A stretch of 64,000 nt of DNA from Lantana camara (taxonomy: Eukaryota > Streptophyta > Magnoliopsida > Lamiales > Verbenaceae), in assembly GCA_037501455.1 (NCBI GenBank), contig CM074856.1, positions 47,459,001 to 47,523,000 on the forward strand, written 5' to 3'. The notes beneath the pieces were generated by a model. That model made no database searches. It saw nothing but the letters and a program-made list of their open reading frames with translations, and was not told the origin of the DNA. Position 1 is the stretch's first letter, and each line of letters begins with the position of its first letter. This document shows positions 8,078-40,916 of the stretch, piece after piece. Position numbers and translations under genes: made by a program.

Positions 8078-8085
8078 TAAAATAT

Positions 8086-8594: not shown

Positions 8595-8745
8595 TAAAAT
8601 ATTCACCAACTAAGAATTTAAACTACCTTAAATATTGTTAAAAGATTAAACTGTTTGTCTAAATATACTAAAATTGAGATATAAATAGATAATTTGACTA
8701 TTTTCTGATTTTCTCTCTTTTTCATTTTTTTTTTCTTCTCTCTTA

Positions 8746-9508: not shown

Positions 9509-9513
9509 GATAT

Positions 9514-10344: not shown

Positions 10345-10349
10345 TTTTT

Positions 10350-10367
10350 TGCGCCGTCTGTGGGAAA
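10350..10367 (+). promoter_or_regulatory. Gypsy primer binding site
   Basis: TGCGCCGTCTGTGGGAA begins six bases after the LTR end. The first part resembles the tRNA-Asp-type site (TGGCGCCGT...) used by many plant Gypsy elements, with a mismatch at the second or third base. The assignment to a specific tRNA is inference. Confidence 0.6.
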
Positions 10368-10432
10368 CCAGTTCTCAAGCCATTTATTTCCTTCTGCTAG
10401 TTGAAAAGCGAACACCCAGAATCCTCTCAACC

Positions 10433-14631: not shown

Positions 14632-14633
14632 AG

Positions 14634-16793: not shown

Positions 16794-17788
16794 ATGGCAA
16801 CCAAAAACCCTCTTGTATCGATCCTCGAGTCAAACAAGTTGACCGGTCCCAACTATTCTGATTGGCTGAGGAATCTAAAAATCATTTTAGATTCTGAGAA
16901 GAGAACTTATGTTCTCTTCGAAGGGGAGCCTAGTCCCGAAGGGGAGGCTCCCACTCGGGCCGAGCGGGATGCGATTCAGAAGTGGAAGGATGATAATCTC
17001 CAAGTCCGTTGCCTTATGTTGGCTAACATGTCTCCGGACTTGCAAAGGCAACATGAGGCCATGGAATTTGCTTGGGAGATTTACGACCATACCGCCCTCA
17101 TGAACGTGTTACAAGGTATAACACTTCAAAGGAATTGTTCCACTTAAGAATGAGGGAAGGTTCAAGTGTCCATGAATATGGACTCAAGTTTCTTGCCCTT
17201 ACTGAGAAACTTGCCTCCATGGACATGCCACTGAAAGATGAGCTTTCAGTGGATTTGTTGCTAGCTTCGCTCCCTCCATCATTCAACCCATTTGTCCTTA
17301 ACTTCAATATGAATCATGTTGGTGCTACTGTAGCTGAGCTGATTAGTCAGCTTGTGACTGCTGAAAGCACGATCAAGAAGGACAATAAGGTTTTGATGGT
17401 GAATGCTCCATCTTCCTCTTCTGGGCCTTCTAAAGGTAAGGGCAAGAAAGCCCAAAAGAAGAAGAAGAAACCCCTTAGGCCCACTGGTGGCATTTCGAAG
17501 GGGAAGGCCCAAAAGAAGAAGCATGGTCAGAAAGAGGATGTTTGCTTCCATTGTGGCAAAGCGGGACATTGGAGGAGAAACTGCCCAGAGTATAAGGCTA
17601 CTCTAAAGAAAGGTATCTTTCTCGTTGAAATAAATCTTTCTATTAATTCTAGTTCTTGGGTACTTGATACCGGTTGTGGAACTCATATCTGTAATGATGT
17701 ACAGATGCTAAGTGAAGTGCAACAACTCAAAGAAGGAGAATGTGTCTTGAAGATCGGCGATGGCTCAACGTTGAAGCTCGAGCTTTAG
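16794..17788 (+). pseudogene. Copia gag and protease start, frameshifted
   Basis: Starts at ATG 16794 with the Copia gag N-terminus (LTGPNYSDWLRNLKIIL). A frameshift at about 17100-17120 moves it to the next frame, which continues through the gag core, a lysine-rich segment and the zinc knuckle CFHCGKAGHWRRNC (near 17545, CX2CX4HX4C intact). It then reaches the protease active site WVLDTGCGTHIC near 17657. A second frameshift around 17760 leads into the integrase part. Confidence 0.88.
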
Positions 17789-20697
17789 GCACAATTAGAT
17801 TAGATTTAGGTAGTTTTGAGTTAGTCTTAAATAAAGTCCTTTATGTACCGAGCATTATTCGTAATATAATTTCTGTTCGAATTTTAGATTGTGAAGGTTA
17901 TGAAACTTATATTAAGAATGGTAAATACTTTATCAAACGGAACAACTCTTCCGTTCACATCGGTACTCTAAGTAATGGACTTTATCTAACTCAGAATATC
18001 AATATCATGAATATACAACGAGAAACGAAGCGTAAGAGAGATGACAAAGTTTCAGCTCCCTTATGGCACGCTAGATTAGGACACATTTCCTAGAACAGAA
18101 TTAGCAAGATAAACACTTTAGGATCATTCTCTGAAAATGATCTCAAAGAGTTAACTTCTTGCGAATCCTGTCTCAAAGGAAAGATGTCCAAAGTTCCTTT
18201 TAAAGGAACTGTGGAACGTGCCACTAAGGTCTTGGATTTGATTCATTCTGATGTTTGTGGACCGCTCAGTGTAAGCACTAGAAATAATCATCAGTATTTC
18301 ATAACCTTTACCGATGACTTTAGTCGATATGGTTAAATATACTTAATGAAGTATAAATCTGAAGCTTTTGAGAAATTCTTGGAATTTCGAAAGGAGGTTG
18401 AGAACCAAACTAGTCACAAGATCAAAGCACTTCAATCTGATCGAGGAGGCGAATATCTTAGTGAAGAATTCCTTAATCATCTCAAAGATAATGGGATTAT
18501 CTCTCAGTGGACTCCTCCGGGAACTCCTCAGCTTAATGGAGTTTCTGAGAGAAGGAATCGAACCTTACTTGATATGGTTCGTTCCATGATGAGTTTCACT
18601 GGCTTACCACCTTCTTTCTGGGGTTATGCCCTAGAAAGTGCAGCAAAGATTTTGAATCTAGTTCCCTCTAAGTCAGTCCCTAAAATGCCCTATGAAATGT
18701 GGCATGGTAAAATCCCTAGCTATTCTTACTTAAGAATTTGGGGTTGTCCTGCTTACGTGAAGAGGACAGTGGGAGATAAGTTAGAATCTCGTTCTAACTT
18801 ATGCTACTTTGTAGGTTATCCTAAGGAATCCATAGGATACTACTATGATCAATCTGAGCAAAAGGTGTTTGTTTCCAGAAATGCCATTTTTCTTGAGGAA
18901 CCGCTCCTTAAAGAAAAGAAAGGCAAGATCATAGAATTAGAAGAAGTACAAAGTGATCCCACACCACCCACTGAAGAAACGTCTCCTCCTTATCAACCAC
19001 AACCAATCACGAATTTCGATACACACGAAAATCCTCCTCTGAGGCATTCTAAACGCACTCCTAGATAGCCGGAGAGATGGTATGGATTCTTCCATGAAAT
19101 CTCTCAAAAGGATAATGATCCTTTAACATATGAGAAGGCACTTTCAGATTCTGACTCTGAACAGTGGATAGAAGCCATGAAATCCGAAATGGACTCCATG
19201 AACTCCAACCAAGTTTGAACCTTGGTAGATTTGCCTGATGGGGTCAAACCCATAGGTTGCAAATGGATCTTTAAGAGAAAGCTTGGAGTTGATGGAAGCA
19301 TTGCAGCCTACAAAGCAAGATTGGTTGCAAAAGGATTCACTCAAAGACCCGGCGTGGACTTTGATGAAACTTTTTCGCCAGTTGCAATGCAAAAGTCTAT
19401 TCGGATCATGTTTGCCATTGCTGCATATTATGACTATGAGATATGGCAAATGGATGTGAAAACTGCCTTTCTCAATGGTGACATTGACAAAGACATTTAT
19501 ATGGAGCAACCCATAGGTTTCACATTCAGTGGGAGTGAGCAAAAGGTTTGCAAACTCCAAAGATCAATCTATGGATTGAAACAGGCTTCTACGAATTGGA
19601 ACATTCGATTTGATAAATCAGTCAAAGCGTTTGGCTTCATTCAAATTTCGAATGAGTCCTGTGTGTATAGAAAAGAATTGGAGACCTCAGTGCAATTCTT
19701 AGTACTTTATGTTGATGACATCCTTCTTATTGGGAATTCGAAGGATGACATGAAAGTGACTAAGTTATGGTTATCGAACCAATTCAAGATGAAAGATCTT
19801 GGTGATGCGTCCTATATCCTTGGAATTAAAATCTATAGAGATAGATCTAGAAGGTTAATAGGACTATCACAGTCGATGTACATTGACAAAGTATTGAAGA
19901 GATTCAATATGGAGTCAGCAAAGGTTAAGAACCTTCCTATGAGTGTAGGAACATGTCTTTCAAAGAAGATGTGTCCTAAGACTAACCTTGAGAAGGAAAG
20001 AATGACTCATACACCTTATGCATCAGCAATAGGTAGCATAATGTATGCAATGTTATGAACTCGACCGGATGTGGCTTATGCACTTAGTGTAACAAGTCGT
20101 TTCCAATCTGACCCTGGAGATGGTCACTGGGCTGCCGTGAAGAATATTCTTAAGTACTTGAAAAGTACTAAAGATTTACTCTTAGTTTACGGAGGTCAGA
20201 AAGATCTTAATGTCGAAGGGTACTGCGATACAAGCTTTGCATCTGACTTAGATGATTTTAAGTCAATGTCAGGATACATTTTCTGCCTAAACGGCGGAGC
20301 AGTGAGTTGGAAGAGTTCCAGGCAAACAACCACTGCAGATTCAACCACTGAGGCCGAATACTTAGCTGCAAATGATGCAGCTAAGGAAGATGTTTGGATT
20401 AGAAACTTCATTCAAGAATTGAATGTTGTTCCTAGCATGAAAGACCCCATTTCTGTGTTTTGTGACAACACTGGGGCGGTTGCTCAAGCAAGAGAACCAA
20501 GATCTCACCAACGGACCAAGCACATTATGAGGAAGTATCACCTAATCCGTGATATTATCAAAAGAGGAGATGTGCAAATTGAGAGGGTCACATCAGCAGA
20601 GAACGTGGCAGATCCACTTACTAAACCCCTTAGTCGAGAAGCTTTCCAAGGTCATCTTCAGAAGATGGGACTTAGAGTAGCTTTAGAATGGCTTTGA
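17789..20697 (+). pseudogene. Copia pol (protease end, integrase, RT, RNase H), stops in frame
   Basis: Continuation of the polyprotein. Recognisable parts in order: the GAG-pre-integrase LWHARLGH (about 18062), integrase core with DFSRYG and SDRGGEY, RT with QMDVKTAFLNG, the LYVDDIL catalytic box (about 19708), and RNase H with DTSFASD, EAEY and the ADPLTKPL end. In-frame stops at about 18091, 18334, 19066, 19216 and 20056 break it. Several fit single C-to-T or G-to-A changes from Trp, Gln or Arg codons, as expected from methylated-cytosine decay. Confidence 0.88.
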
Positions 20698-20698
20698 C

Positions 20699-20713
20699 GG
20701 GCAAGTGGGAGAT
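20699..20713 (+). promoter_or_regulatory. Copia polypurine tract
   Basis: GGGCAAGTGGGAGAT directly precedes the 3' LTR start TGTTAGG at 20714, the usual plus-strand primer position. Confidence 0.85.
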
Positions 20714-22665
20714 TGTTAGGAATAGTACCCTAGAAAGCCGATTGTATATCCGCTTTGTGCTTTTCCTTATTGTAATCGCAGACAATCTTTGAATGAAATA
20801 ACGAATTGAGATAACACTTCTTTATATGCTCTTGTTTGGTATGCGTTTACTTTGGCTGTGCATGTATGAGAACTCCCCTAATCCTGATGACTTTAGGACT
20901 CTACCATTTAGGTGAAATGGATCATGAAACGAGCCCTATATCACATAAGTCATGATTAGTAAAATACTCCAAGCCGATGAGTCCTACAGACAGTGGGAGT
21001 GTCAACCTGACTTCTCTAAGGCTTGCTTGTGGGATCACGCCCTTAAGAAGGACCACCTTGTTTCATGGAGGTGCAAAGTGTATAGTTGATACGTGCGTGA
21101 TACATGAGGGTGCCTACTTTAATAAGTAAGTTCACTGAGGTGCCCCGTGTGAGAACATTCCTAAATGGGAAAGGAAGTTTCTATTTCAGGAAATGGAAAC
21201 TTCCAGATTAGGAAATATCTCACGAGTCATTGATGTGATTAATTGATCCTTAGACTTGAGGTTCCTTGTCACTTTATGAGTTAACTCTGTAGTCTTTTGT
21301 ATAAGCTTTAAAGGGTGTCGCCTTAGACAAATGATTCAAGGCTTATGCTGGGGCTGCACAAGTGATTTATGAAAGTGAATGAGAATCAAGAAAGGACCTA
21401 CACTTGTATTTGCAAGGTGATCTCTTATTGTGTAAGTCATTCATATGCCATATGGAGTCCTTGGCCAAGGCAGTAGATCAAGACATCAAGAATAAGGTTT
21501 CTTGGATTGAGATCAAATGGATATGAAATGCACTTAGCTTTAAGACCGGATTATTAGGGTTCTGATTATTCCCTTACCCTAGATCTTGGTTGAGAGATAG
21601 TAAGTAGAAGGATTGTATCTCACATGAATCAATGACTTAAAGGTTCTGTCGAATCCGAACATTCCAATTCAGCTAGGGGTTAAACACCTGTTGCTAGACT
21701 ATGGTCGTTTAATCTGTGGACTGATTAATTAATTGGTGAATTAATTAATTAGGGTCACTGCTAATTGAATTGAGAACCTAGAGGATCACACACAATAACT
21801 TGGTTACATGAGTTGAGGCTTAAAAATGATTAAACGAGTTAATCGGGCCTAGAGGGTTCCACACGTGTGAAACCACACGTGTGGCTCACGTGAGTGACAT
21901 GTGTCCTTGTGACACGTGTCCCACACGTGTGTGTATATATATATTGTATATATATATTAAATAATTAAATGTGTTAATTATTTAATAGACTTTGGTTTAA
22001 TTTTGAATTAAAAAGAAAGTCTAATTTTGGAGAAAAATAATCTAGTTAATTAATTATGAATTAATTAATTAGATAAAATAAGTTATTTATTTTAAATAAA
22101 TAAAGTATAAAATTATCCAAAAATAGTTTGGATATTTTTAGCTCTCTTGAAAGTTGATTTGAATTAGAATTCAAAGTCAAAGTCAAAATTACTTGATGAT
22201 CAAGTAATAGGAGAGAGAGAGACCGAAATCCTAGCCCATTAAGGACTAGGAATTTCGGCACTCCCCCTCTTATAAATAGGGGAGGTCGAGCTCCTCTAGG
22301 AGCGAATTGGCAATTCTTTTGGTTCATGTGTTGAACACCTTCCTTTCTCCAAGATCAAATAAACCCTAGGTTAAGCCTAAACATTAACTAGAGAACTAGC
22401 ATCCTTACTAGTTAGATTGTGATCAAGTTGGTGGATTATCTCTAGAGAGCTTCAAGTTAGAAGTTTGAAGATTCGAGCTTTACCAAGGAGAGGGGATCAA
22501 GCCGCGAAAAGAGCGTTCTTGGGTGGCTTGAAACGCTTCAAGAAAGAATAAAAGAAAAGTAAGTTTTCTATCTCTACGAATTTGGTTACACGATTACGAG
22601 TCCAAGGTCCTTTTGTTGGGAAAATTTTTAAATTCCGCTGCTTTCTGATTCGTGTTTTCCAAACA
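20714..22665 (+). repeat. Copia 3' LTR
   Basis: 1952 bp, same ends as the 5' LTR, with TATA box at 22271. Carries a 91-bp segment (22561-22651, including AAATTCCGCTGC) missing from the 5' copy. Followed by the target duplication TACGT and then by Gypsy protease in frame. Confidence 0.95.
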
Positions 22666-22670: not shown

Positions 22671-25368
22671 TTCAAAAGATGAATGCCAACATCCCGCTCG
22701 AACCTCTCAGGACAGCCCTCATTGGCTTTGGAGGTTCGGAGGTCGTCCCACGAGGGCAGATTCGCTTGGCCACTTCTTTCAGCCGAGCCCCGCAGCGCAA
22801 AACACTCATGGTTACCTATGAAGTGGTGGAGATTGATATTCCCTTTAACATCATAATCGGGCGTCCAGCCCTCGTTGATTTGAAAGCCATCATCTCCACC
22901 TACCACCAGAAAATCAAATTCCCCACCTCCGAGGGCGTTGGAGAAGTGTTGTGCAACGTGCGGGAGGCCTGGGAATGCTACATGTTGTCCCTCAGAAAGC
23001 CTAAGGCAGAGAAAACATTCCAAATTGAGTCCACCAAGAAATCAGTTGACTTTCTCCATTTAGATGAGGATGGTCCCTTGCGCAAGAGGGCGAAGTTGAA
23101 CAAGAAAAAGAACAAGAAGAAGGACACCAGCATCAAAGACTCCCTCGAAAATGCCCCGCCGGGGACAGTCGAAGAATCTTCCTCAGAGGGAGACGAGCGT
23201 GAGGGAGACGAGCCCCTTAATGATGGAAACTTGATAGGAATGAAGAGGGCGCTTGAACTACCTCGCCCAGAAATGAGAATCGATCCCTCATAAAAGTTCC
23301 TTACTATTGAGCTAGAGCCTGGGAACAAGGATAAAACTACTCAGATTGGGTCCAACCTCTCTGGGCCCTCACAGATCATGATGATTGACTTCCTCAGAGA
23401 GAACATTGACGTCTTTGCGTGGAAAGCATCTGACCCTACAGGGATTGACCCGAGCGTCATAGTCCACAGGCTCAATGTGGATCCATCGTTTAAGCCCATA
23501 AAACAGAAGAAACGGAATGTACATGGTTTTCGGAAGAAGGTCATCGAGGAAGAAGTTAACAAGCTTCTGGAGGCTCAGTAGATTGAGCCCATCTTATACC
23601 CCGAATGGCTATGCAACGTGGTATTGGTGCCCAAGAGCGCAAAAAAATGGCGCATGTGCAATGATTTTACTGATCTTAACAAGGCTTGTCCTAAGGATCC
23701 ATACCCGCTGTCTCGGATAGACCAGTTGGTCGAGTCGACCGCTGGATGTGAGCTCATGAGCATGATAGACGCCTTTCAAGGGTACTATCAGATCTTCATG
23801 GCTCCAGAGGACCGCCCCGAAACTTCGTTTGTCGTCCACTTGGGGGTATATTGCTTCTTAGTCATGCCTTTTGAACTAAAGAACGCGGGAGCCACATATC
23901 AGCGACTTGTCAACAGGATGTTTGAGAAGGAAATTGGAGGATCCATGGAGGTGTACGTAGACGATATGATTATCAAGAGCGTCACGGCCCACATCTGGAA
24001 GATCTCAAGCGCACATTTTCAATTCTGCGCCAGTATGGGATGAAATTGAACCCTTCAAAATGTACTTTTGGAGTACGAGGGGGAAAGTTCTTAGGCTACA
24101 TGGTCAGTCAGAGGGGAATTGAAGCCAACCCATAAAAGATCAAGGCTATATTAGAGATCCCCTCCCCTCGAAACCTCCGAGAAGTGCAAGTGTTAGTGGG
24201 AAAAATCATCTCCCTGAACAGGTTCATTTCACAGTCGGCGGACAGGAACCTCCCTTTTTTTAAAATTTTGCGGAACGCACGAAATTTCGCTTGGACTGAG
24301 GAGTGTGAAAAAGCATTGCAAGACATGAAAGCGTACCTTTCGAGCGCTCCACTCCTAACCAAACCCGTTGAGGGTAAAAGACTGTTTATGTATCTCTCCA
24401 TTTCGACCGAGGCTACGAGCGCGGTATTGATAGTTGTACGAGAGCGAAAACACTTGCCTGTTTATTATTTGAGCAAGACGTTGCAAGGAGCCGAGAAGAA
24501 ATATTTGAAAATCGAGAAATTTACGTTTGCCCTCATCAATGCATCAAGGCGTTTGAGGCCTTACTTTCAAGCACACTCAATAACGGTCCTTACTAATCAA
24601 CCCTTGAGATAAGTTTTGTCCAAACCGGACATGCTAGGAAGATTGATAAAGTGGGCTATTGAGTTGAGTCAGTTTGACCTAAGTTTCGAGCCTAGAACTG
24701 CAATACAAGCGCAGGTGGTAGCGGATTTGTTGGTTGAACGCTTCGGTTTAGAACCCGTTGTTCCCGAGAGCGAGGGGTTATGGGTCCTGCACACAGATGG
24801 TTCCTCAACCTCTCAAGGGGGAGGAGCAGGGGTATCCCTTAGAGACTCCAATGGGATTGAGTTAGACTTTGCAATCAGGTTGGATTTCCAAGTCACCAAT
24901 AAAGAGGCAGAGTATGAAGCCCTTGTACAAGGATTGAAAATTGCTTTTCAGAACGGGGGTTCCAGGATCACCGCCTATGTGGATTCTCAGTTGATTGCGA
25001 GCCAGATTGAGGAAGTCTATGAGGCTCGAGAAACCACCATGGTGCAGTACTTAAGCAAAGCCAGGGAGACCATTAGGAAGTTCAAGGAATTCCATCTACT
25101 CCAGGTACCACGAGCAGAAAACGAGCGCGCTGACGCTCTATCTAAATTTGCTTCGGCATTGGAAGGCACTTCTGAACGTTCAGTAACGTTCCTTAGAACG
25201 AAAGAACCTTTGATCAAGGAGGGAATCGCCGAAGGGATGGTTGCTATGATTGATCCGCACGAGCCATGTTGGCTTGATGACATCATCAGATTTCTTAAAG
25301 ATGGTGTTTGTCTCACTGACAAGGTAGAGGCTCGGAAAATTAGAAACAAGGCCCTCGGTTTTCAATAG
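22671..25368 (+). pseudogene. Gypsy protease end, reverse transcriptase and two RNase H domains
   Basis: The Gypsy polyprotein resumes immediately after TACGT, in the frame left at 12771. Domains: protease C-terminal half (FNIIIGRPAL), RT fingers (KWRMCNDFTDLNKACPKD), the VYVDDM catalytic box near 23951, a frameshift near 24000, connection/RNase H (FAWTEECEKAL), then a second, archaeal-type RNase H starting LHTDGSS (about 24788) with EAEYEAL, VDSQL and RADALSK acidic residues present. Stops at about 23291, 23579, 24133, 24610 and 25366. The duplicated RNase H identifies the Tat lineage. Confidence 0.9.
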
Positions 25369-25399
25369 ATTCTAAAGGAAGGCTATTCAAGAAGTCATT

Positions 25400-26500
25400 T
25401 CAAGGACCTCCGATGAGATGTCTAAGGCCCTCGCAGGAGAAGGAGACGCTCGAACTCATTCATAGTGGGAGCTGTGGGCATCACTCAGGAGGGCGTATCC
25501 TGGCTAAGAAAATTCTGAGAAGTGGGTTTTATTGGCCCACAGTTCTCCAGGACGCCATTGAATTTTCCAGAAAGTACCCTAAGTGCCAGTTCCATTCAAA
25601 TCTCCCTCAACTGCCAGCCGCTCAAATGATCCCTATAGATGTCTCCTGGCCCTTTGACCAGTGGGGAATTGACATTGTTGGCCCCTTGCCCATCGCGGTC
25701 GGACAGAAGAAGTTTATCATGTTAGCTGTTGATTATTTCACCAAATGGGCCAAGGCCGAGGCCGTAGCAAAAATAACCTTTAGGGTCGTAAGGGACTTCA
25801 TTTGGAAAAACATCATTTGCAGGTATGGCATTCCAAGGGTGCTTATTTCAGACAATGGATCTCAGTTTATAGCGGCAGACACACGAGAGTGGTGTTCAGA
25901 GTTAGGGATTAAACAGCGTTTTACCTCTGTGGGCCATCCCCAAGCCAATGGACAAGCAAAAGTTACTAACAGGGTCATCTTGCAACATCTGAAAACAATG
26001 CTAGAGAGCAAAAAGAGTGAATGGGCAGAAGAATTGCAAGGGGCACTCTGGGCTTATCGCACTACTCCACGAGCAGCCACAGGCGAAACACCTTTCGCGC
26101 TCGTATATGGGTCAGAAGCAATGATACCCGCGGAAATTGTAAGCGAATCCGCTCGTGTAGCCTATTTCGAGCCCCCGCTTAATGAAGAAAACAGGAGCCT
26201 GGAGTTGGACTTATTGGAAGAAAGAAGAGACAAGGCCTGGGCTAAAATACACAAGTATAAGGCAACCGTGGCACAACAGTACAACAAGCGTGTAAGAGAA
26301 AGGACTTTCCAGCTAGGGGACCTGGTCTTAAAGAAGGTGGAAGTATCCAAACATGTGGGGAAATAGGACCCCAACTGGGAGGGTCCATTCAAAGTTATAC
26401 AAGTCAGGGCTAACAACACTTACACCCTGGAGACACTTCAAGGTGAGCGTTTGTCTCGCCCTTGGAACGCATGTAACCTCCGGCGGTTTTATGTTTAAAA
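25400..26500 (+). pseudogene. Gypsy integrase, catalytic Glu replaced
   Basis: Integrase with the H..H-C..C zinc region (HSGSCGHHSG ... KCQFH), the core WGIDIVGPLP (first Asp) and LISDNGSQF (second Asp). The third catalytic residue, expected 36 positions after the second Asp in a GQAxVTNR context, is Lys rather than Glu. An in-frame stop at 26364-26366 cuts off the C-terminal GPFKV-type domain, which is still readable to about 26498. No chromodomain is visible. Confidence 0.88.
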
Positions 26501-26896: not shown

Positions 26897-27260
26897 TTAA
26901 GAAGAAATTTCACAAGTCTGGAACGAGGGCAGTCCCCCAGTAAGACCCTCGTATTTCCTCAAGACTTAGCAAAATTTCCAAGATTAAGAAGAAATTTCAC
27001 AAGTCTGGAACGAGGGCAGTCTCCCAGTAAGACCCTCGTATTTCCTCAAGACTTAGCAAAATTTCCAAGATTAAGAGGAAATTTCACAAGTCTGGAACGA
27101 GGGCAGTCTCCCAGTAAGACCCTCGTATTTTCTCAAGACTTAGCAAAAATTTCCTAAGTATGAAAGCAATAATTTACACAAGTCTTAAGGGGGGGCAAGC
27201 TCACAATAAGACCCTCACGGTTACTCAAGACTTAGTGAAATTTTTCAAGTTTTACAAGAT
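26897..27260 (+). repeat. 87-bp tandem repeats downstream of Gypsy integrase
   Basis: Three near-identical 87-bp units start at 26897, 26984 and 27071 (TTAAGAAGAAATTTCACAAG...), followed by a degenerate fourth to about 27260. 87 is divisible by 3, so one frame stays open through all units, but no start or domain supports coding. Tandem repeats between pol and the 3' LTR are common in Tat elements. Confidence 0.9.
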
Positions 27261-27482
27261 TTAAGCAAAATCTTCTAAGTAGCAAAAGCCTATCTGAAAT
27301 ATGCAATCTTTACTAAGCATGTTACACACAATTTTATTACTACAAGATCTGTTCACAATAAGCAACAAGTAAAATTCCGCATTCAAGAAGTGGCAAAGAA
27401 CAGCATTATAAAAAGAAGGAATTTCATTTGATTGGGGTTCTTCGCCAGAAACTACAAAATAAAGGCTCAAAGGCCCATTAAC

Positions 27483-27488
27483 TTTATT
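27483..27488 (-). terminator. Poly(A) signal of the antisense gene
   Basis: AATAAA on the minus strand, about 65 bp beyond the antisense stop codon at 27553. Confidence 0.55.
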
Positions 27489-27552
27489 ACAAAAGGTGGA
27501 AGCATTGAATTGGAATAGTAAGGGTCGTAAGAAAAGCTAAAGGGGAGGAGCC

Positions 27553-30448
27553 TTAGGCCGCAGGAGCCACATCTTCATCCAAGATCACCAAAATGTTCTG
27601 GGCCACGGGTCCATAGATGGGGCCTTCCGGCTCTTGGTGCTGGGCAGCTTGATGCTCAGGCTCGTTGTCTGCAGGCACTTGAGGATCGTTGGGCTCGTTG
27701 GCATTGGAGGCAGGAACATTGGCATCCTCAGCGGCCGGAACAAGGGCATTTTCCATAGCAGGCGCTTGGGGCTCATTTTCAGAAGGATCATTTTGTGCGG
27801 CTTGGGAAGCATCTCCTACAGGATGGGCTTCCATGTACTCATCCTGGATAAGCTTGACCAGGAATTCATACTCCGGTTCAGAGATATGGTCCGCTGGATC
27901 GTCACGTTCGTCATCATCCTCCTCACAACGCTCATTAAACATGAGCCCCATGTCCTCTGCCCCGCGAATAGGCGGATCCGTCAGCCCTTTATGGATGCCT
28001 TGCTCGATGGCTAAGTTGAAGGCCTTTTGAGCCTCATCCAAGCAGTGCAAGGATGCTGCAAAGTTGAAGGCTTTGGAATGACAGAATTTGATGAGAGCCT
28101 CCTTGTTTGCTCGAGCGAGACTCTGGGGCCACTGGTTCATGGTGTCGGTGAATTTTCTTTCTGCCTCCAGAGCCCTCGTTTTCCAGTCTTCACGCTCGGC
28201 TTCGAGCTTTTTATAGCCCTCACTGAGTTGGGCCAACTTGTTGCTCAAGCTGCTCCGAACGCTCTCCACGCCCGCAAAGTCATCCTTCAGCTTCTTCATT
28301 TCCTCCTCTGCCTTCTTGTATACCTCCTTGAGGGAAGTATAATTAGCCTTCTCCGTGTCCAGCTCCACCTGGATTTGGGCAAGGTAGTTCGCGAGCGCCA
28401 TTTTCTTATACTTGGCCTTGCGATCAGCATAAACGGAGGCGCGTATTTGGATGTTCTTGGCCCTCGGGAGCACTTGCTGCACGGGCTCAAAAGAATGAAA
28501 GTGTTAGTGAAAATATGGGAAAGTAATACCTACCAGAGATAATGAAATTGCAAGGGAATGAGAACTTACAGAGATTAAAGCGTGCACCATATCATAGGCC
28601 ACCGTCTCTACGGACTCAGTGTACAAATGCCAGTGGTCCGCGGTAAATTGGGCCTTTTCGAATAAGTTCTCGCTGACAGTCTGAGCGAGCGTCCTGGGCC
28701 TCAGCAGAAATGCACCCCCATCCGTAGAGCCGGAGAAGTTCCTGGCGAACTTCCACAGATGTTCTTCCTCTGAAGAGGAAGTCTCTCCACTGCCCTTGGG
28801 ACCTTCAACTACTTGCTTTCCTTTGCCCGTTATTGCGAGGGTGCCGGGCATCCTCTGACTCTTACGGGATGACCGTTCAACGCTCGATTGAGCCTCATCT
28901 ATCACCACGTTGGCTGGGGGCCTCGCTTGGTTAGCATCACGAGGGTCGGCCACCCTCGAATCTATCGGAGGAAGTGGCCGCACCACTACTCTGTTCTCTA
29001 CATTGGTCGCTCGGCTATCCCCTCGGCCTCGTTGAGTTTGAGCGCCAGGAGCCGAACTCGAGCTGGCGCCATGCTGGCCAACACGAGCGTCCCCTCTTCC
29101 CGCTCCACGGCCTCGGGGACGTTGTTGTTCCTCTTGTTGGGCCTGGCGCCTGTTGGCATTTGCGAACCTGGCAGCGTGTCTAATTCCTCCAGCCATTTCC
29201 AAGATTGTTGCTCCTGCAAAGAAGGCAAAAACGAGGGTCTGAAACCCTTAGACAAATTTTGCAGAATGCAAGTTACAAATACAAAGGGACAGTTAGTATT
29301 CCTATCTACAAGTTAGGCCCTAAGAATCTAACCATCTCTCTCCATATCGCGAGCGGGAGGGTTATCAAGATAATGCGGGTCATTTGTGAGACCACAGAGG
29401 AACATAAGCTCCGCATTGTCTATCCAGTCCTTGGCACGAATCAAATGGCCTTCGTCCCTCAATGCCTCCACCAAACTCTTGGCCCAATCCTTTGGAAAGG
29501 AGGGTTCCAGGCGATTCTTTACAAGTGAACCCTTCCCATGCGAGATCCAATCTGATGACACCCCAAAACCTTCCTCCGTGGGGGCCTTAACAAAGATGAA
29601 TTTTTCCTTCCAGTTTGGACCGTAAGTGCTGGAGGGAGAGTTGACTAACTTCAAATGGGCCTTCGCTTGAATATAGTAGAAGAAGCCCGCTTCAGGTGAT
29701 GAGCGTGGCGAGCTGACCACTTGGAGAAGAGCGTTAAAGTTCCGCAGGTAGGGCTCGTAACCAACATATCTCATGAGTATCACAAAGCTCATTAACAATG
29801 CGAGACCGTTGGGCACGATTTGTGAGGGACAGAGGCCCAGATCGTTCAGAATGTGAGCCACGGGGAGTGGAATTGGGAATCTCAAGCCCCCAGAGCTGAT
29901 CGCATCAATATAAACCGCCATCTCACCGGGCGGTTGGCGCGCTCGTGGTTAGCGGGGATTCTCCATTGGAAACGCTCATCCCAATAAATGGGGGCCATGG
30001 CAGACTTTATCTCCCCCAAGGTTATTGTGCTGGGAGTTTCATCAGGGGTGCGGTCGATCGCTTGCATACCCGAGCCATCACCCTTGTTGGGCCCTTTGGC
30101 TTTCTTGGTCTTACTAGTTCTTTTGCCCTTTCCCTTGTCACGGGCTCTTTCAGAGGGCCCCGCTATTTCCTCGGCTTCCGGTGCCGGAGCTGCGATTGCC
30201 ACTATCACAGTATGGCGGTGAGGGTGAGTCGCACTCTCGGTTATCGGGAGAGTCACCCCCTGCCTCTCCGCCTCCATCACTAAGTTCATCTCTTCAAAGA
30301 TGTGTTCCACCCCATCTGGGTTTCTCTCATCCATGGCCATCACGGCCGCGCCCAACTCTTCGTCTCTAGGGGAATCCGGAGGAGATAAATTATGGACGGC
30401 CATCTCTTCAACTTCACGGGCAAATTCCTCTACGTGATGTTCGGCCAT
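27553..30448 (-). CDS. Antisense spliced gene of the Gypsy element (PF04195-like domain plus coiled coil)
   Basis: Oppositely oriented to the element. Exons: 30448-29333, 29213-28570, 28476-27553; introns 29332-29214 (GTTAGA...TTTGCAG) and 28569-28477 (GTAAGT...GTGCAG). Reading phases match across both junctions. One frameshift or one-base indel near 29950 separates the first 165 codons from the rest; spliced length is about 890 codons if bridged. The N-terminal region is acidic, then lysine-rich. Next is a segment with GEMAVYIDAISSGGLRFP and PNGLALLMSFVIL, which resembles the plant 'putative gypsy type transposon' family. An Arg/Gly-rich linker follows, then a long coiled coil (AEEEMKKLKDDFAGV...) and an acidic, proline-rich tail. 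Antisense genes of this type are known in Tat elements (Grande gene23, Retand); their function is unknown. Much less damaged than the sense gag-pol. Confidence 0.78.
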
Positions 30449-30736
30449 AGCGATGTTGGAGTTTGAAAGGGATTTGGGAATTTTTTCTGGGAAACGTTAT
30501 ATATCTAAAGAGATTCGAGATTTCTGGAGAGTAGAAGCCTAAGGAATCGCGGAATCCTAAATATGATTCTAAGGTTAGAAAAGTTATAGAGTTTCACCGG
30601 AGATTACCTTGAGATTTCTGAGAAAGCTTGAAGGAAGATTTGGGATGCTCTGAAACTGGAATACAAAGAGTTTTTCTGCTAAAGGATGCTTTGAGGATTT
30701 GTTCGCGTAAAAGATGGAATGGATGCAGAATCCCTC

Positions 30737-30743
30737 ATTTATA
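30737..30743 (-). promoter_or_regulatory. TATA box of the antisense gene
   Basis: CCCTATAAATGAGG on the minus strand, about 290 bp upstream of the antisense ATG at 30448. Position and sequence fit a pol II core promoter inside the element, facing away from the 3' LTR. Confidence 0.6.
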
Positions 30744-31061
30744 GGGATGGGAGTTGGTACGGTTTCTGGCAAAAATTCAAAATTATAATCATTTTCCGCC
30801 TAGGAAACCGTTCACTTTACTGAACCGTCACGTACTTCCCTAGACCCACGCGCATCGGCATTTAATGCTCAGACGCTCCAAGTGGTCAGAAGAAAGTACA
30901 GCATTTAATGCTAAAACGTTACAAGCGGTCAGACGAAAGGACCGCATTAATGGCGAGATCAGAAAGATAATTGCTCAATACGCTAAGCCTCATACGAGCG
31001 ACACGCACGATGGATGACGTTGGATAAAATTCTGCAGCCCTTATCACTAAGGGCTACCGAA

Positions 31062-31075: not shown

Positions 31076-31905
31076 TGATGGGGGCAAAATACGCTCGTCC
31101 CACGTTTGGACACGTGGCACCTCAAAGATGACGATACCTGTTCTGCGATTACGGTAGTCATGCACGAGCGCTGAAACCTTCAAAGCGCCCGCTTTCTTCA
31201 AAGACACACGTCAACTCTGTCACATATACACATGGTCAACGTTACCGTTCTCTCATGAGCGTCATTCCTACTATATGGCCAACGTTCCAATTTTATCAAG
31301 GGGGGCCCCTCTTCGAGCGCTACATTCCCTCAGGGAGGCTTCCACTTCAACTCTTTACACAAGCCTGGCCCTCATCCCCTAGCGAATTTCTTAGCCTCCA
31401 AGGCTTTTGGTTGTCACGAGCGCCCTCTTTGGCCCTCGTTACCAACCTCCCAAACGGCTCTCTGACACACCGTACATGCCCGCACACCTACCACTGTTGC
31501 CAACACTAACTTTCAGCAGCTTTTGCAGAAGATTCCTCCTAGGTTTCTCTCTCACAGCGCCACGTGTTAGGGCAACATTCGGTCAGGACCACATGCGGCA
31601 AATGACCAAAGGGTCCCTAACCCTCAACTATAAATGGGAGTCTTCACCTCCTTCACTGTAAGCAACCTCCATTACTGCAATTCATACTTAGCTTACCTTT
31701 TCTCTTTCAGATCATCATCTGACTTGAGCGTCGGAGAGCCAAACTGGGCACCACCCCCAGTTCTCCCAGCTTGGCCTTCTGACTTTGTCTGTGTGTTTGT
31801 CCTAGCAGGTAGAATCCCTATCTTTTCCAGCGAACTTCGACTGGCTTCCCCCTCCTAAACAAATTCTAAAGTGATCGGACTTTGTACCATATTCAGAACC
31901 CATCA
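31076..31905 (+). repeat. Gypsy 3' LTR
   Basis: 830 bp, TGATGGGGGC to AACCCATCA, followed by the target duplication GATAT (31906-31910). Partner of 9514-10344. Confidence 0.95.
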
Positions 31906-32202
31906 GATATATAGATAAATCCTTTTAAAATTTTATTTTAAGGTAAATAAAACACTACCCAAAAAAGAAAAGTAAACAATATATTATTTAAACCAACCTA
32001 ATGTTTACTAGCTAGGTTGCATTGCTAGGGCAATGTCCATCCTAAAAAGTGAAGCAAACTCCTTAGACTGTGTTTACATCTTTACTAACTGAGAGTTTGG
32101 AGTTTTTATCTCATTTTCTTAGTTTAATTTCTTAATGTAAAAACCTAAGAAACTCGTACAAGCCTGAGTGATTTGAAGGATTTGGGCATTACTAGCAGAC
32201 AT

Positions 32203-33152: not shown

Positions 33153-33669
33153 TGTGGTTTTTGATATTTCCTTTTCTAGGATCATTTTTCCTTGTGTTTA
33201 GTTCAATAAATACATTCCAATTTAATTTAATGCTGAGTTGTAAATTAAAAGTACGTTTCGAATATCTTCTATTTAATATTTTTTTATTAATTTTGTTTTT
33301 CTTAATTTATTTGTATTTCTTTCTCTAGGAATGTTAATTCTAATTCTTATTTTGGTATTCCGAAATTAAAAACTATAATATTATAATCAATATTAAGGGC
33401 CATTTATATTTAAACCCCAAATGAATTTTTAATTAGGAATTTTTAGTACATTAAAAATACATTATGAAAGATAAGTTTAAAGTTTCTATCAAACATTATT
33501 ACAAAGAAAACTCCCCTTTTCGCCTCAAAAATAATTGAAAGTGAACCGAAGTTATTGACACTTAGAGTGGCTACACTAACATATAATTCATGACTTTCAA
33601 GATCTTTTTGCCAAAGTAAACAAGGCCTTAGGCTATAGCCACAACACTTACCATCAACACTCTGCCAAA

Positions 33670-35520
33670 ATGATACTCCTCCTTCTCTTTGCACTCATCT
33701 TGCCTGCAGCCATTCTCATTGTCATTCACAGACACAAAACTCCTTCATCTCCACCAGGCCCTCCAGGCCTCCCTTTCATCGGAAACCTCCACCAGTTTGA
33801 CGCCTCCGCCCCTCACGTCTACCTATGGCGCCTCTCAAAGAAATACGGCCCTCTAATGTCCATGAAGCTCGGTTCGAAGCCCGTAATCGTAGTGTCCTCT
33901 CCGAAAATGGCGAAAGAAGTGCTCAAGAACCACGACCTCGCCTTCTGCAGCCGGCCCTCATTTCTCGGGCAGGATAAATTATCCTTCGGGGGCTTAGATA
34001 TCGCTTTGGCCCCTTACAATGAATCATGGAGGGAATTGAGAAAGATTTGTGTTCTTCATCTCTTGAGCAGCAAACAGGTTCAGTCGTTCAGGCCGGTTCG
34101 CGAGGACGAAGTGTCCTGTTTGATCAGAAAGGTGTCGGACATCGCGGAATCAGGGCAAGTTGCTAACTTGAGCGTGACATTGATGGCGCTCACGAGTAGG
34201 TTAATCTGTAGGGTGGCGTTTGGAAAGAGTTTTGATGAAGGAGGATTGGAGAAGATGAGATTTGATGAGCTTATGATTGAGTCTCAGGCCATGTTAGGGG
34301 GATTCTTCTTCTCTGATTATATGCCTCTGTTTGGCTGGGTTGATAAAGTGTCCGGGATGATTGACAGACTTGAGAAGGTTTCGAAAGACATGGATGAGTT
34401 TTACAGGGAGATCATTGATGAGCATCTGGATGCAACAACGGAGAAATCTGGGGATACAAATATTCTTGATCTATTAATCCAGCTAAAAGAAGGAAATTCG
34501 AGTCCGGTTGATCTTACATGGGATCATATAAAGGCAGTACTCATGGTGAGAGTTAATCAATCTTACTTATTTTGTATTCTGCGTTGTTTCTTGATTGATT
34601 CTTGCTTGCTGTGATGAATAATTCTTGTAGGTTACAAATACCCCCTCATGTGATTACGCATATTTAATTGTTGTTACATGAGTGAATGATGTTATTAAAC
34701 ATAGTTAGTAATATTTTGAGTCAATTCTTCTTACATGAAGGAGTGATGTTATGTATGTTTCCCACGGTTTTGAATCGATTCCCAAGATCAAAAGGGGAGT
34801 TTTGGTGATTCTCAAAACTACAAGGGAAGTTTGTGTAATTATATATACTTGCAGGGGAAGCAGTGCAATTAACACCGTTTCTTTGTCTTTCATTGTATCT
34901 AGAATTTATTCATTGCTGGGACAGACACAACCTCAGTAGCAATAACCTGGACCATGACTGCACTCATGAAAAATCCAACGGTTATGAAGAAGCTGCAAAA
35001 CGAAATCAGAGATCTCATTGGTTCAAAAGGCATCGTAGATGAGGACGATCTTTCAGAACTCCCATATCTGAAAGCAGTAATCAAAGAGTCTTTAAGACTG
35101 TACCCCCCAGCTCCCCTCATACTACCTCGAGAAACCCTAGAAAAATGCACATTAGAAAGCTATACGATTCAACCCAAGACTTTAGTCTATGTGAATGCAT
35201 GGGCTATTGCAAGAGACCCCGAGTTCTGGGATCATCCAAATGAATTTATTCCCGAGAGATTCTTGAACACTAATGTTGATATCATAGGGCAAGATTTTCA
35301 CGTGATCCCGTTTGGATCGGGGAGGAGAGGGTGCCCCGGGATTACAATGGGGCTCGGTACCATGGAGCTTGCATTGGCAAATCTCGTGTACTCGTTCGAT
35401 TGGGAGTTCCCTGATGGTGTGAAAAAAGATGATATTGATGAGGAAGTCTTGCCTGGACTTACTATGCAGAAGAAGAATCCACTTTGTCTTGTGCCCAAGA
35501 AGTATGAATGTGGTCCTTGA
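33670..35520 (+). CDS. Cytochrome P450, CYP71 clan (CYP71/CYP83-like), copy 2
   Basis: Exons 33670-34545 and 34903-35520, intron 357 bp; 497 residues, the same exon sizes as copy 1. The first 100 or so residues differ from copy 1 at only a handful of positions, and the introns also align. Motifs intact: PPGPPGLP hinge, AGTDTTS, ESLR, PERF and FGSGRRGCPG. The ATG chosen is the first one and has no in-frame upstream ATG nearby. Differences from copy 1 concentrate in the middle (about residues 100-260), which includes substrate-recognition regions, so substrate range may differ; this is inference. Both copies look functional. The pair is separated mainly by the 22.4-kb nested retroelement. Confidence 0.92.
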
Positions 35521-36471
35521 TTATCTAGGGATATCATTGCAGTGTAAAAAAGTTTAGTTTCAATTTGACCTGTGCTCGTGGTTGTTTGGTGTGTCTACGC
35601 AACTTATCCAGCATTTAAGTGTCACGTTGTGTAACATATTATTCGACAATAACGGTGTCATAATCAATCTAACAACATTAGATTTGACCAATCGAGAGTG
35701 CCTTCTCGTTCAGGCAAGCTTGATTTTGTAGTTTCATAAGCAACCATTGATCCTATTCGATATGGAATAGAAAGAACCGGGGACAGGACAACCTAATGGT
35801 TAATGTCCTATGATAAAATGATGTAGGTATACAACCACACCGAAGCCAGCTGCTGGTGTTATCCCATCCCAGCTACTGGTGTACGAGGCCGGGTAAAATC
35901 TCACCCCGACCAGAAGTACGTGGGACGGTTAATGAATGATAATTTCTTCAAATCGAGTGGTTCGAGTTGAGCAGGTACAATTCATATAACTAATGAAGTA
36001 GCGGATAGGTACAATTCTTGGAACTGCTGGAGTATCGAATATCAATTTAACCGAACCACACAAGGACCCAAACAAAGAATGATATTAATCACATAGTATA
36101 GCTCGTTTGGCTCAAACTAGTCATTCTTGGGCCATATAACAACATTTATTTTGAGTTCGAATCAGATCGGATCGAACCATCCTCGTATAAGCTTGAGAAT
36201 GGATTATGGAGCTGAGATTTGAAGTGTTGCCCAAATATCAATTCTAATAGACTATAATATTCCAACTATTTCAAGTTTCAACAATTCACCTGACTGGGAG
36301 TCCAATTCTACAAGAACAAGAACGACAGTACTCATCATAACACCAGCAAACTGTAAACTAAACACAAAAACCAACCATCCTTCAATAATATCACAACTTT
36401 AAACAAAGATTGCAATGTTTGGAATCAACCAACAGTGTAGCTATAGAACTCATGATGAAGAATGATTAAAC
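35521..36471. other. Spacer between P450 copy 2 and P3
   Basis: No gene seen. A stretch at about 35780-35950 (GGGGACAGGACAACCTAATGG ...) is less AT-rich and could be an old repeat, but I cannot classify it. Confidence 0.45.
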
Positions 36472-37741: not shown

Positions 37742-37915
37742 GATTGATCTACAATGGTACCGGATCTTCTACTCCATTTTGGTGTTTCATCTCATACTCC
37801 ACCGACTGGATGCGTGACACGTGTATGATTTTGTCAGATTTTCTAACACAGAAAATTATGGTATTATCGATAAAAGGAAAAAAAATTCTTTATATATCTA
37901 ATATTAAAAATATTA

Positions 37916-38366
37916 TATATCCAGTAAATTAAAAAACAAATCCTACTTTTTATTCGGATTATTTTATAATATCCAAAGTAAAAATATTAAATTAGTATCG
38001 TCTTTTTTAAATTTTTATTTTTAAGTTATGAACTTTTTTAAGAGCAAAATATTAATATTAAATATATTTTGTAATATTCAAACTGAAAAATATTTTATAA
38101 TATTCAAAGTAAAAATATTAAATTGATATTCAAAGTTGTTATATTTAATATTAAGTATATTTTATAATATTCAAACTTTAAAAAATATAAATTTAATATT
38201 CAAACGTTGATAATATACTTTAAAAAATATTTTGCTCTTAAAAAATCTTTTATAACTTGAAAATAAAAATTTTAAAAAACAACAGTAATTTAATATTTTT
38301 ATTTTGGATATTATAAAATAATCCCAATAAAAAGTAGGATTTGTCTAATTTATTGGTTATATAAAT
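37916..38366. repeat. 450-bp AT-rich palindrome
   Basis: Left arm from AAATCCTACTTTTTATTCGG, right arm ends in its inverse CCAATAAAAAGTAGGATTT. Inner landmarks AAGAGCAAAATATT / AATATTTTGCTCTT pair, and the centre is near 38140. Confidence 0.75.
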
Positions 38367-38383
38367 TTTGCCTTTTTTTTTAA

Positions 38384-39229
38384 GGGTTAATTACATATAG
38401 ACCCTATGGGAGTATTAGAAACTACAACTTGTGACCGTATTTACATACACCGATTGAGGAATTTGAAAATTACACAAGACGCCCATGAATTAGGATTCTT
38501 TTAAATTTTTGATGACATCATCAAACTTTTATTTTGCCCCTTCATTTAGTATAATAATTTTTATTTCAAGAATTACCCCTTGTTATATTGAATTGTTATT
38601 GAAAATCTGAATTTAATAAATTAAATTATTAATTAATAAAAAATGATATGATTTTTTCATTTCAAATATTAAATTATATATAATAAATTTGAATTTAATG
38701 GATTAAATATAATATTTAAAAAACGTAATATATATAGATTATGATATATAATTAATATATATAATAAAGTAATATTTATATATATTATATATCATATATA
38801 TTAAGTTATAAATACGTTATTATAACACGTAATATATATGATATATAATATATATAAATATTAATATATATTAATTATATATTATAAATCTATGTATATA
38901 TTACGTTTTTTAAATATTATATTTAACCCATTAAATTTAGATTTATTATATATAATTTAATATTTAAAATGATAAAATTATAAAATTTTATATTAGTTAA
39001 AATTATTAAATTCAAATTTTCAATAACAATTCAAATATAACTACAAGTAATTCTTGAAATAAAAATTGTTATACTAAATGAATGGGTAAAATAGAAAAAC
39101 CAAGTTAAAAATTTGATGATATCATCAAAAATTTAAAAGAATCCAAATTCATGGGTGTCTTGTGTAATTTTCAAAGGGTCACAAGTTGTAGTTTATAATA
39201 TTCTCATGAGGTCTATATGTAATTAACCA
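38384..39229. mobile_element. Foldback MITE, Mutator-type
   Basis: 846 bp. GGGTTAATTACATATAGACC at the left matches the inverse end TCTATATGTAATTAACC(A). The arms stay paired for about 200 bp (CTACAACTTGTGACC, CCCATGAATTAGGATTC, TTTGATGACATCATCAAA). Flanks are T-rich (TTTTTTTAA-like both sides), compatible with a 9-bp duplication blurred by slippage. Length and ends resemble the element at 60961-61803. Confidence 0.75.
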
Positions 39230-39411
39230 TTTTTTTTAATATTAGATATATAAAGATTTTATTTTCCTTTTATTAACAATATCATAATTCTCTGTTTTAA
39301 AAAATCTGACAAAATCTTACACGTGTCACACATTCAGTCAGTGGAGTATGAAATGAAGCACCAAAATGGAGTAGAAGATCAAGATCTGGTGCCATCTACA
39401 ATCACTTATGA

Positions 39412-40720
39412 AGTATGAAAGAAGATAAAAGGAGAAATAGACACTACACAATAATGTTTCTTTTTTTTCAAATTTATCTGGTGAATGGTATCGATATGAT
39501 AAAATAATATTTTAAAAAATATCATAAATACACAAATTACGGAAGTACACATAATAGTTTTAAGAAAATAAGTTAATAATGAAGAACTGGGCTATACTTT
39601 TAAGAATATCATTTTGTCGTGTCTTATCATTTCATATCCATCACTTCTAACGTGAAAATTTTAAGAAAAAATATGTATCACTGTATCCATATCATATTGT
39701 ATTGTGTTCGTATTATTGTATTCATATATCACGGCCATTTAGTGTCCATCAGACTCAACATGGATCATTCCTCATCCTTAGACATATAGATTCTATTCCC
39801 ATAACAATACTACAAGGTTTGGAACCAATCACAAGTTACAACCTCTTTAATCTTATAACGGATACCCATTATGACCAATATCTCCATATATATGAGATGA
39901 ACACCTGGCGACAACTAGAATTATTTAGATGCAAATTGACCCCTTATGAGGATCTATTCTTGGAAAGTTTGATACTGTCCGTGTCTTTGACATTCTTATA
40001 AGTTGAATTATTGAACATCAATTAACCATCTAAAAGCTTTCAAACATGAATTAGTTAAATTATATGTGCCCCTTTAATTTGCTTAGGTATTGGGTGAGTT
40101 ATTTGATTTGAACTCTAAAAGTTTAAAACGAGCAGATGACTTAATAATAAGCATCTGCACCTGTAAGTTAGTAGGTACGCAATTGCTATCAGTAGAAAAA
40201 ATTTTATTCGACTTAACTCGAACCCATAATGGGATACAAAATCAAATTTTTGAGGGTAATCAAATTTCCTCTCTCTCCCGACTAAAAATATTTCGCTGAT
40301 TAGTTTCTCGACTTCACTTGTTTGAACGGTGTTTAGAATTTTTCATAAATTTTCCTCACCTCCCACTCAACATAGAATGACCTTCCAACCCTAATTGTGC
40401 TATAGTACATAATTGATAATTCCATGCAAGAGTGCAAGACATATAAAACTTCATGTTCACGACATGAGATACTCATGAATAGCATTAATAATGTCTTTAA
40501 ACATAATGTCTATTTCTCTTCTTGTGATAGAAGAGAATATAGTTTCCAAAACTTTCTTATTTTCATGACCCTTTTCCTTTGCCTCGCGTTGCTATTTTTT
40601 TTCCTGAATTTTCCAAGTGAAGAGTGTCGGGACACCGACATGAGTGTCCGACACAACACAATAAAATGATATTTTTAGAAGTATTTGTGCATCATAAATT
40701 ATTGTTCATGTCCCCTGCAA
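39412..40720. other. Spacer upstream of the miRNA locus, nothing recognised
   Basis: AT-rich sequence with short unsupported open frames. No domain or splice structure seen. Confidence 0.45.
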
Positions 40721-40776: not shown

Positions 40777-40916
40777 TGGTCTTTTCTTTTGCATGAAGAG
40801 GCAGAGAGATGAATGTAGCCAGGGATGATTTGCCGATAATGGGGATGATTAACTTATTCTTACCAGCAAATTATTCTTGGCTACATTTAACTCCATCCTT
40901 CTCATGCAAGACCATG
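40777..40916 (+). ncRNA. MIR169: MIR169 family microRNA precursor
   Basis: A 140-nt foldback. The 5' arm carries a 21-nt miR169-like sequence at 40816-40836, beginning TAGCCAGGGATGATTTGCC; family members typically read (C/U)AGCCAAGGAUGACUUGCC. The 3' arm (about 40862-40886) pairs with it almost fully. Three of the differences from perfect pairing are G:U wobbles only when the plus strand is transcribed, which sets the strand and matches the 5'-arm position of miR169 in known precursors. Pairing continues below the duplex (GCATGA at 40791 with TCATGC near 40907, and GGTCTT with AAGACC). miR169 guides cleavage of NF-YA transcripts and responds to drought and nutrient stress in many plants. Mature and star lengths are inferred. 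Confidence 0.8.

Follow-up and report, generated by a model that had tools for sequence, protein, structure and literature searches.

The stretch of DNA analyzed here (hereafter the window: 64,000 nucleotides of Lantana camara, GenBank assembly GCA_037501455.1, contig CM074856.1, positions 47,459,001 to 47,523,000) contains a complete Ty3/gypsy element of about 12.5 kb, 1–2 million years (My) old, with both long terminal repeats (LTRs) and the 5-bp target duplication GATAT, interrupted by a nested Copia element. In the region that separates pol from the 3' LTR, the minus strand carries a gene of three exons and two GT-AG introns (30448-27553). Judging by domain order, sizes and the antisense open reading frame (ORF), the element is of the Retand type (Tat lineage) of Ty3/gypsy, and the gene is, from its sequence and location, an antisense accessory gene of the TRP28 (Transposase_28) type. 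This gene, and short CGA-containing words dispersed through the element that carries it, are the subject of this work.

The gene opens with an ATG at 30448. Exon 1 (30448-29333) encodes an N-terminal part and the TRP28 (PF04195-related) domain, and is followed by intron 1 (29332-29214; 119 nt, GT-AG, 39% T), exon 2 (29213-28570), encoding an RG-rich linker, intron 2 (28569-28477; 93 nt, GT-AG, 42% T), with CTAAC 31 nt before its end, and exon 3 (28476-27553), which encodes a putative coiled coil (Pfam matches sub-threshold only) and an acidic tail and ends with the stop codon TAA. The phases are compatible: the single base left over from exon 1 is completed by two bases of exon 2, and the junction of exons 2 and 3 is in phase 0. 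On the same strand, a TATA box (TATAAA, within 30745-30733) is situated between the gene and the 3' LTR, outside the LTR itself, which begins at 31076, and an AATAAA (within 27489-27476) is found 65 nt 3' of the stop. Reading of the sequence at these coordinates confirmed the initial annotation, a model-made note on this DNA, which had proposed three exons, two GT-AG introns with matching phases, a TATA box, an ATG, a stop and an AATAAA, with a single frame break in about 890 codons. The position of that break could be narrowed down to about 29945-29888 in exon 1, and the frame of the gene is otherwise free of breaks and stops.

The host element (plus strand) starts with the 5' LTR (9514-10344; 831 bp, beginning with TGATGGGG and ending with CCCATCA), which in self-BLAST is 97.5% identical to the 830-bp 3' LTR (31076-31905). 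The GATAT copies stand at 9509-9513, before the 5' LTR, and at 31906-31910, after the 3' LTR, their edges being read in the sequence. Twenty differences, 19 of them transitions, were found among 830 compared bases of the LTR pair (Kimura two-parameter distance 0.0247), which dates the insertion to 0.95 My at a substitution rate of 1.3 × 10−8 per site per year, or to 1.76 My at 7 × 10−9. The gag region (10345-12765; PF03732 match in 11295-12740) is interrupted by the nested Ty1/Copia element (12771-22665, plus strand, TACGT on each side; the end at 22665 was counted by hand), inserted within gag-pol, whose own LTRs (12771-14625 and 20713-22568) are 98% alike in self-BLAST. The 3' LTR of this Copia element (20713-22665) seems to be about 90 bp longer than the 5' one, at its right end. 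The remaining polyprotein (22671-26500) comprises reverse transcriptase (RT; PF00078), RNase H (RH; PF17919, 24136-24609), a second RNase H, aRH (PF13456, 24613-25365), and integrase (PF00665, 25344-26363). A tandem array (26897-27243, plus strand, 87 bp × 3.9) is located in the spacer that separates pol from the antisense gene, and a shorter repeat (30858-30952, plus strand, 43 bp × 2.2) upstream of the antisense TATA box. As for the lesions of the sense strand, the two gag frameshifts named by the initial annotation were seen again in the ORF pattern, and its count of at least six stops was nearly reached: as judged by ORF boundaries, there are two frame changes and as many as five stops in pol, and one of the stops, between gag-protease and RT, may be natural.

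The position of the second RNase H between RH and integrase corresponds to the order RT, RH, second RH, integrase given for Ogre and Retand (PMC6317226). The sizes, i.e., about 4.6 kb from pol to the 3' LTR, an 831-bp LTR and an internal region of about 10.8 kb (by subtraction of Copia), are within the ranges stated for Retand: 2.9-6.6 kb, 315-1194 bp and 7.4-12.9 kb, respectively (PMC11963269). Another feature by which Retand elements are recognized, an antisense ORF located after pol and before the 3' LTR, is present as well. According to the same source, antisense TRP28 ORFs occur in 97% of recently active Retand clusters (Vicient 2025, PMC11963269), so the gene belongs to a known kind, and the earlier assignment to antisense genes of the Grande/Retand sort is supported. 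The likeness covers position and orientation, a TRP28-related domain, the adjoining tandem repeats and the sizes. The published Retand genes are treated as ORFs, and the main text describing them lacks the word "intron" (PMC11963269), whereas the family studied here has three exons with conserved splice sites, measured selection and dispersed clade-specific words. The role of such genes is described as unknown in papers of 2020 (PMC7264820) and 2025 (PMC11963269), and the DNA binding of TRP28 is, in the latter, a program prediction only.

The proposed PF04195 relationship was examined with the corresponding hidden Markov model. The second exon-1 piece of the window gene scored 22.7 bits (E 1.2e-4), below the curated cut-off of 26.2, one family copy (L004) scored 16.9 bits, and another (L017) gave no match, while a sister locus (L033), whose PF04195 piece is 51% identical to that of the window, reached 39.5 bits. 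The family of the window thus seems to be a divergent TRP28 branch. At Pfam E-values up to 1, the first exon-1 piece and exon 2 matched nothing, exon 3 gave only its sub-threshold matches, and the second exon-1 piece matched TRP28 alone. Among 7992 scored candidates of a protein database search none passed E 0.001, a search of viral contigs returned two pattern matches and no relative, and one match only (E 0.21) was found among PDB sequences.

By description rather than by sequence, the gene may be compared with maize Grande gene23, likewise an antisense accessory gene with its own promoter, whose protein was reported as nuclear (PMC7264820), and with the antisense gene of human T-lymphotropic virus (HTLV), cited in the same paper as an antisense gene within a retroelement. 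The HTLV antisense promoter lies inside the 3' LTR, whereas the TATA box of the window gene is outside it. The HTLV antisense gene is spliced. Plant LTR elements are generally intronless, with Ogre and EVADE as exceptions (PMC12786077), and a survey of titles and abstract openings returned no report of introns in Retand-type antisense genes.

For the comparison of copies, exon 3 was used as a query against the host genome (1.27 Gb). Of 8697 candidates, 129 were scored, and these yielded 130 match rows, one of them being the window itself. Thirty copies were taken: the 20 that ranked highest next to the window, and ten of lower rank, five of which were chosen for long open frames. The gene alignment had 30 rows (29 copies and the window; L015 was left out owing to an insertion) and the pol alignment 16, as L002, L004, L008, L017, L019 and ten short loci had no usable pol stretch; the rows common to both comparisons made a 15-row set. 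Ten further TRP28 loci (L031-L040) were selected for long open frames, with their words unseen, from 150 listed PF04195 places (of 7705 candidates). Since L031/L036, L034/L040 and L037/L039 are pairs 88-92% identical, the independent lineages among them are few.

In these copies, the signals of the gene recur. Of the 24 rows with a locatable start (of 31 rows), 21 have TATAAA at a distance of 288-315 nt upstream of it, AATAAA follows the stop by 123-135 nt in 17 of 20 copies and is missing within 300 nt in the other three, and tandem arrays with an 87-90 bp period occupy the same spacer position in 18 of 20. The donor of intron 1 is GT in all 29 rows with letters there and its acceptor AG in 29 of 30; donor 2 is GT in 29 of 30 and acceptor 2 AG in 24 of 30. 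The length class, and with it the phase, is kept in 25 of 30 rows for exon 2 and in 29 of 30 for exon 3, the lengths of intron 1 falling into all three classes. Both introns are also found, with GT-AG, in L033, L037, L038 and L039, whose antisense proteins are 30-51% (L033, L037 and L039) or 51-76% (L038) identical to that of the window. Precise intron loss was seen in none of the 30 rows (L007 retains 36 nt of intron 1); five exon-3 matches with long open frames (558-571 aa), considered as candidate intron-less copies, were rejected, as their frames run through readable introns 2. In L021-L025, the length of intron 2 is divisible by three and its frame is open, so the unspliced form could be translated. 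The replication cycle suggests how a retroelement can keep spliceosomal introns: those of a gene antisense to the sense genomic RNA would not be removed on reverse transcription.

In place of the dN/dS (ratio of nonsynonymous to synonymous substitution rates) near 1 across family copies that the initial annotation had named as evidence against its reading, frame-specific purifying selection was found. Median pairwise dN/dS (Nei-Gojobori, 30 rows) was 0.191 for exon 1a, 0.127 for the TRP28 part, 0.224 for exon 2 and 0.162 for exon 3, with the caution that the mean-based value for exon 1a is 0.34; three parts of pol gave medians of 0.068, 0.149 and 0.074 (16 rows). In the 15-row set, the off-frame values were 1.0-1.7 on the same strand and 1.0-2.0 in two opposite frames, and stops numbered 1-7 per 1000 codons in the frame of the gene versus 6-86 in other frames of the same stretches. 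For exon 3, both dN/dS and the stop rate are biased low because it served as the search query. Among the gap runs of the exon parts after exon 1a, 10 of 24, 12 of 25 and 8 of 9 have lengths divisible by three, compared with 2 of 12 and 2 of 8 in the introns.

Several observations weigh against taking these values at their face. The mirror frame (opposite strand, with coinciding third positions) also has a low dN/dS of 0.22-0.34, yet it contains 26-45 stops per 1000 codons (15 rows), and pol shows the same mirror-frame effect (0.13-0.22). With 0.67-0.89, dS is about twice the intron distance (0.31-0.39), so it may be inflated and dN/dS too low; when measured against the introns, constraint is weaker everywhere and least in exon 1a (dN 0.30, little constraint), in which gap runs in multiples of three (16 of 46) are also at chance level. 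At acceptor 2, the six rows without AG have AA. Even so, we consider a selected, spliced antisense gene highly probable, and the family-wide selection combined with conserved introns points to a spliced and translated protein; the gene is accordingly predicted to be transcribed, spliced and translated. The same evidence bears on the view that the transcript rather than a protein matters, i.e., that antisense RNA from the 3' region pairs with the sense RNA and tunes or silences the element. This was proposed previously (PMC7264820) and agrees with the antisense orientation and the recurring TATA box, but the frame-specific selection, together with the conservation of exon phases and splice sites, requires a product that is translated. 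Antisense RNA as the sole function appears largely refuted by the codon pattern and is quite improbable, although the RNA may act additionally.

That the gene had survived while gag-pol died, as the initial annotation put it, found no support. From the LTR divergence of 0.0247, 0.8-1.3 stops are expected in the gene, so the observed zero (chance of none 0.27-0.43) is unremarkable, and survival in this copy was rejected as evidence of function. By the earlier lesion counts, the gene and gag-pol do not differ significantly (Fisher p 0.09 when stops are compared, 0.17 when all lesions are), and stop rates across copies are similar (2.9-4.8 per 1000 codons in exons 1-2 vs. 2.6-5.2 in pol). The up to five stops of pol exceed its own expectation of 1.2-2.0. 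The window copy is an ordinary decaying copy. It is extremely unlikely that the gene was specially preserved at this locus, as a domesticated or recently selected copy: a stop-free stretch of about 890 codons beside a pol with up to five stops would fit such a history, but the figures above and the frame break of the gene itself speak against it.

While looking for targets of a DNA-binding protein, we noticed that CGAGCG is over-represented in most parts of the element. The window has 42 such words, 37 of them within the Gypsy element, both LTRs included (9530-31422; 21 on the plus and 16 on the minus strand; four in the 3' LTR). When a single LTR is included, the count is 33, compared with 3.2 predicted from dinucleotides, while each of 11 other hexamers of the same letters with two CpGs occurs 0-7 times. 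The words are found in the LTR and the spacer as well as in gag, pol and the antisense gene, they fall into several reading frames, and they occupy all ten of ten equal bins. Their strand split of 18/15 (one LTR counted) speaks for double-stranded DNA as a target over an RNA signal. Synonymous-codon shuffles gave observed/expected numbers of 7/1.9 in gag, 8/1.6 in pol and 8/2.6 in the antisense gene (each p 0.005, the floor of 200 shuffles), and 1/0.3 (p 0.30) and 0/0.3 (p 1.0) in the controls, Copia and the cytochrome P450-like exons of the window. Across copies, CGAGCG was found 101 times in pol vs. 12.8 expected (16 rows; p < 0.05 in 15) and 207 times in the gene vs. 63.1 (30 rows; p < 0.05 in 27), and it is retained better than other CGNNCG words (pol 0.64 vs. 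0.39; gene region 0.53 vs. 0.20; the observations are not independent).

Other Retand loci have words of their own. In clade A (L033, L037, L038 and L039, with pol nearest to that of the window), CGAGCG occurs 21-28 times and CGAGGG 15-34 times. Clade B (L031, L034, L036 and L040) has no CGAGCG and 36-46 CGA[AT]G[CT] words vs. 11-14 expected, unevenly raised among CGAAGC, CGAAGT, CGATGC and CGATGT, with no excess of CGAAGC and CGATGC in L034 or of CGATGT in L031. CGACCC marks L035 (20/5.2) and the pol of L032 (16/2.4). The latter locus was considered as a pol/antisense recombinant, which was rejected: a clade-C pol (1-4600) and a clade-A antisense exon (8071-9255) are on one strand, apparently as two neighboring elements, and were therefore split. 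The words are thus dispersed, clade-specific and retained, and CGAGCG is strand-balanced. The top CpG word occupies 6-10 of ten bins in 11 Retand rows; among the controls it occupies 3 in Copia and, in two loci retrieved by an Athila search, 4 and 2. For the CpG words ranked second and third, the two sets overlap more (3-10 bins in Retand, 1-6 in controls). L041 is a weak control because it has no match to the window's pol.

That the CGA-words are sites of some binder is likely. The contrary view, that they arose without one, through a mutational or codon-pair bias peculiar to the element or because sites were inherited from a common ancestor, depends in part on how far pol sites are shared. 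A single site is common to the window and L033 (6 and 6 sites, 1 shared), the window and L039 (6 and 7, 1), L033 and L039 (6 and 7, 1), L033 and L038 (3 and 6, 1) and L038 and L039 (6 and 2, 1). In clade B, 2 of 11 and 16, 2 of 13 and 17, 1 of 9 and 16 and 2 of 11 and 17 sites are shared between the two lineages, and 8 within lineages. More sites are shared in the window/L038 (4 and 6, 4 shared), L033/L037 (6 and 9, 4), window/L037 (6 and 10, 3), L037/L038 (4 and 6, 3) and L037/L039 (9 and 7, 5) pairs, several of these clade-A pairs having half or more of their sites in common; the sites are thus partly inherited and partly newly gained or lost. A bias would also be consistent with frequent one-change forms such as CAAGCG (15/5.2), and the synonymous shuffle preserves codons, not codon-pair context. 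Such a bias should hardly produce one and the same word in both orientations, in different reading frames and also in the LTR and spacer, nor differ between clades; moreover, most sites are unshared between the two clade-B pairs, and the top CpG word is clustered in the control loci and widespread in Retand. An origin without a binder therefore appears unlikely.

With regard to the identity of the binder, we propose that the TRP28 coiled-coil protein may enter the nucleus, attach in trans to the double-stranded DNA of its own element, with the dispersed CGA-words as sites (CGAG[CG]G for the window clade), and open the chromatin of the family against host silencing, as VANC21 does for VANDAL21. 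We assign a probability of about 0.4 to this mechanism as a whole, in which both the binding of the words by TRP28 and the anti-silencing effect are suggested by analogy. Its generalization, i.e., that Retand antisense TRP28 proteins are sequence-specific DNA-binding anti-silencing factors, each clade having spread its own target word (CGAG[CG]G, CGA[AT]G[CT] or CGACCC) through the whole body of the element including the coding parts, is more doubtful.

The VANC proteins of Arabidopsis VANDAL elements bind short words which were accumulated by tandem repeats and differ between related families, and they bring about methylation loss (Hosaka 2017, PMC5735166). In both systems, an element-encoded protein is accompanied by short, family-specific words, repeated through the element, changing between relatives and present in tandem arrays: the 87-bp array of the window includes six CGAGGG (both strands counted). 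VANDAL21 is a DNA transposon with demonstrated binding, whereas for the Retand retrotransposon the binding is predicted. The Retand system may therefore be likened to the VANC type rather than classed as its member.

A number of results count against the proposed mechanism. VANC21 sites lie in non-coding parts (PMC5735166), whereas Retand words are also found in gag, pol and the antisense gene, and with CpG. Highly shared pol sites indicate mixed turnover. Among the loci up to L035, synonymous shuffles reached significance for only part of the ORFs of L031, L033 and L034, and for not one of the five ORFs of L035. CGAGGG is biased toward the antisense strand in three loci out of five (uncorrected p 0.01-0.05). 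Tandem repeats occur in four of five other loci inspected, none holding the word of its clade, and L035 has no array, which argues against a general link of words and arrays. A single-sequence AlphaFold model of the TRP28 piece was uninformative (predicted local distance difference test score 35). Finally, because the genes of a clade are inherited together, the words cannot be attributed to the antisense protein over integrase, Gag or a host factor.

The last point leads to a further, somewhat less probable explanation: the antisense protein is selected but structural or replicative (e.g., helping to bring the pre-integration complex into the nucleus or to package cDNA), and the words belong to integrase or to a host DNA-binding factor. 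The dN/dS evidence fits it equally, integrase pieces track the clades too (identity to the window 68-91% in clade A, 54-56% in clade B and 57% in L035), and the nuclear location reported for the Grande protein (PMC7264820) would agree with it. A host factor alone, on the other hand, would hardly yield three clade-specific words in one genome. If the anti-silencing mechanism holds, Retand would provide a retrotransposon counterpart of VANC/VANDAL and a function for its long-unexplained antisense gene, and retrotransposons too would have evolved self-recognizing DNA signals, with consequences for silencing and for the invasion of large plant genomes. The clade-specific words make the role of the gene testable, as the TRP28 protein of each clade can be set against the word of its own clade. 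New in this work are these words, of which titles and abstract openings on LTR retrotransposons held no report, as well as the introns, splice-site conservation and dN/dS values for a known kind of antisense gene.

In the neighborhood of the element, two stretches that are 91% identical (4923-6850 and 33664-35623) flank the Gypsy insertion, as a duplicate separated by it; from their ORFs, we take them to be cytochrome P450-like. Long imperfect inverted repeats (37763-39380) adjoin a very AT-rich stretch (GC 0.21 in 38001-40000), and a precursor matching the Rfam family MIR169_2 is located at 40803-40896 (56.3 bits on the plus strand and 51.6 on the minus). A region of about 480 bp (8098-8577), in which AT-rich DNA is bordered by two blocks of CGTGTCCGACAC-like words, resembles a miniature inverted-repeat transposable element; clusters of the hexamer CGTGTC, the same as in these words, were also observed in L042, a locus from the Athila search.

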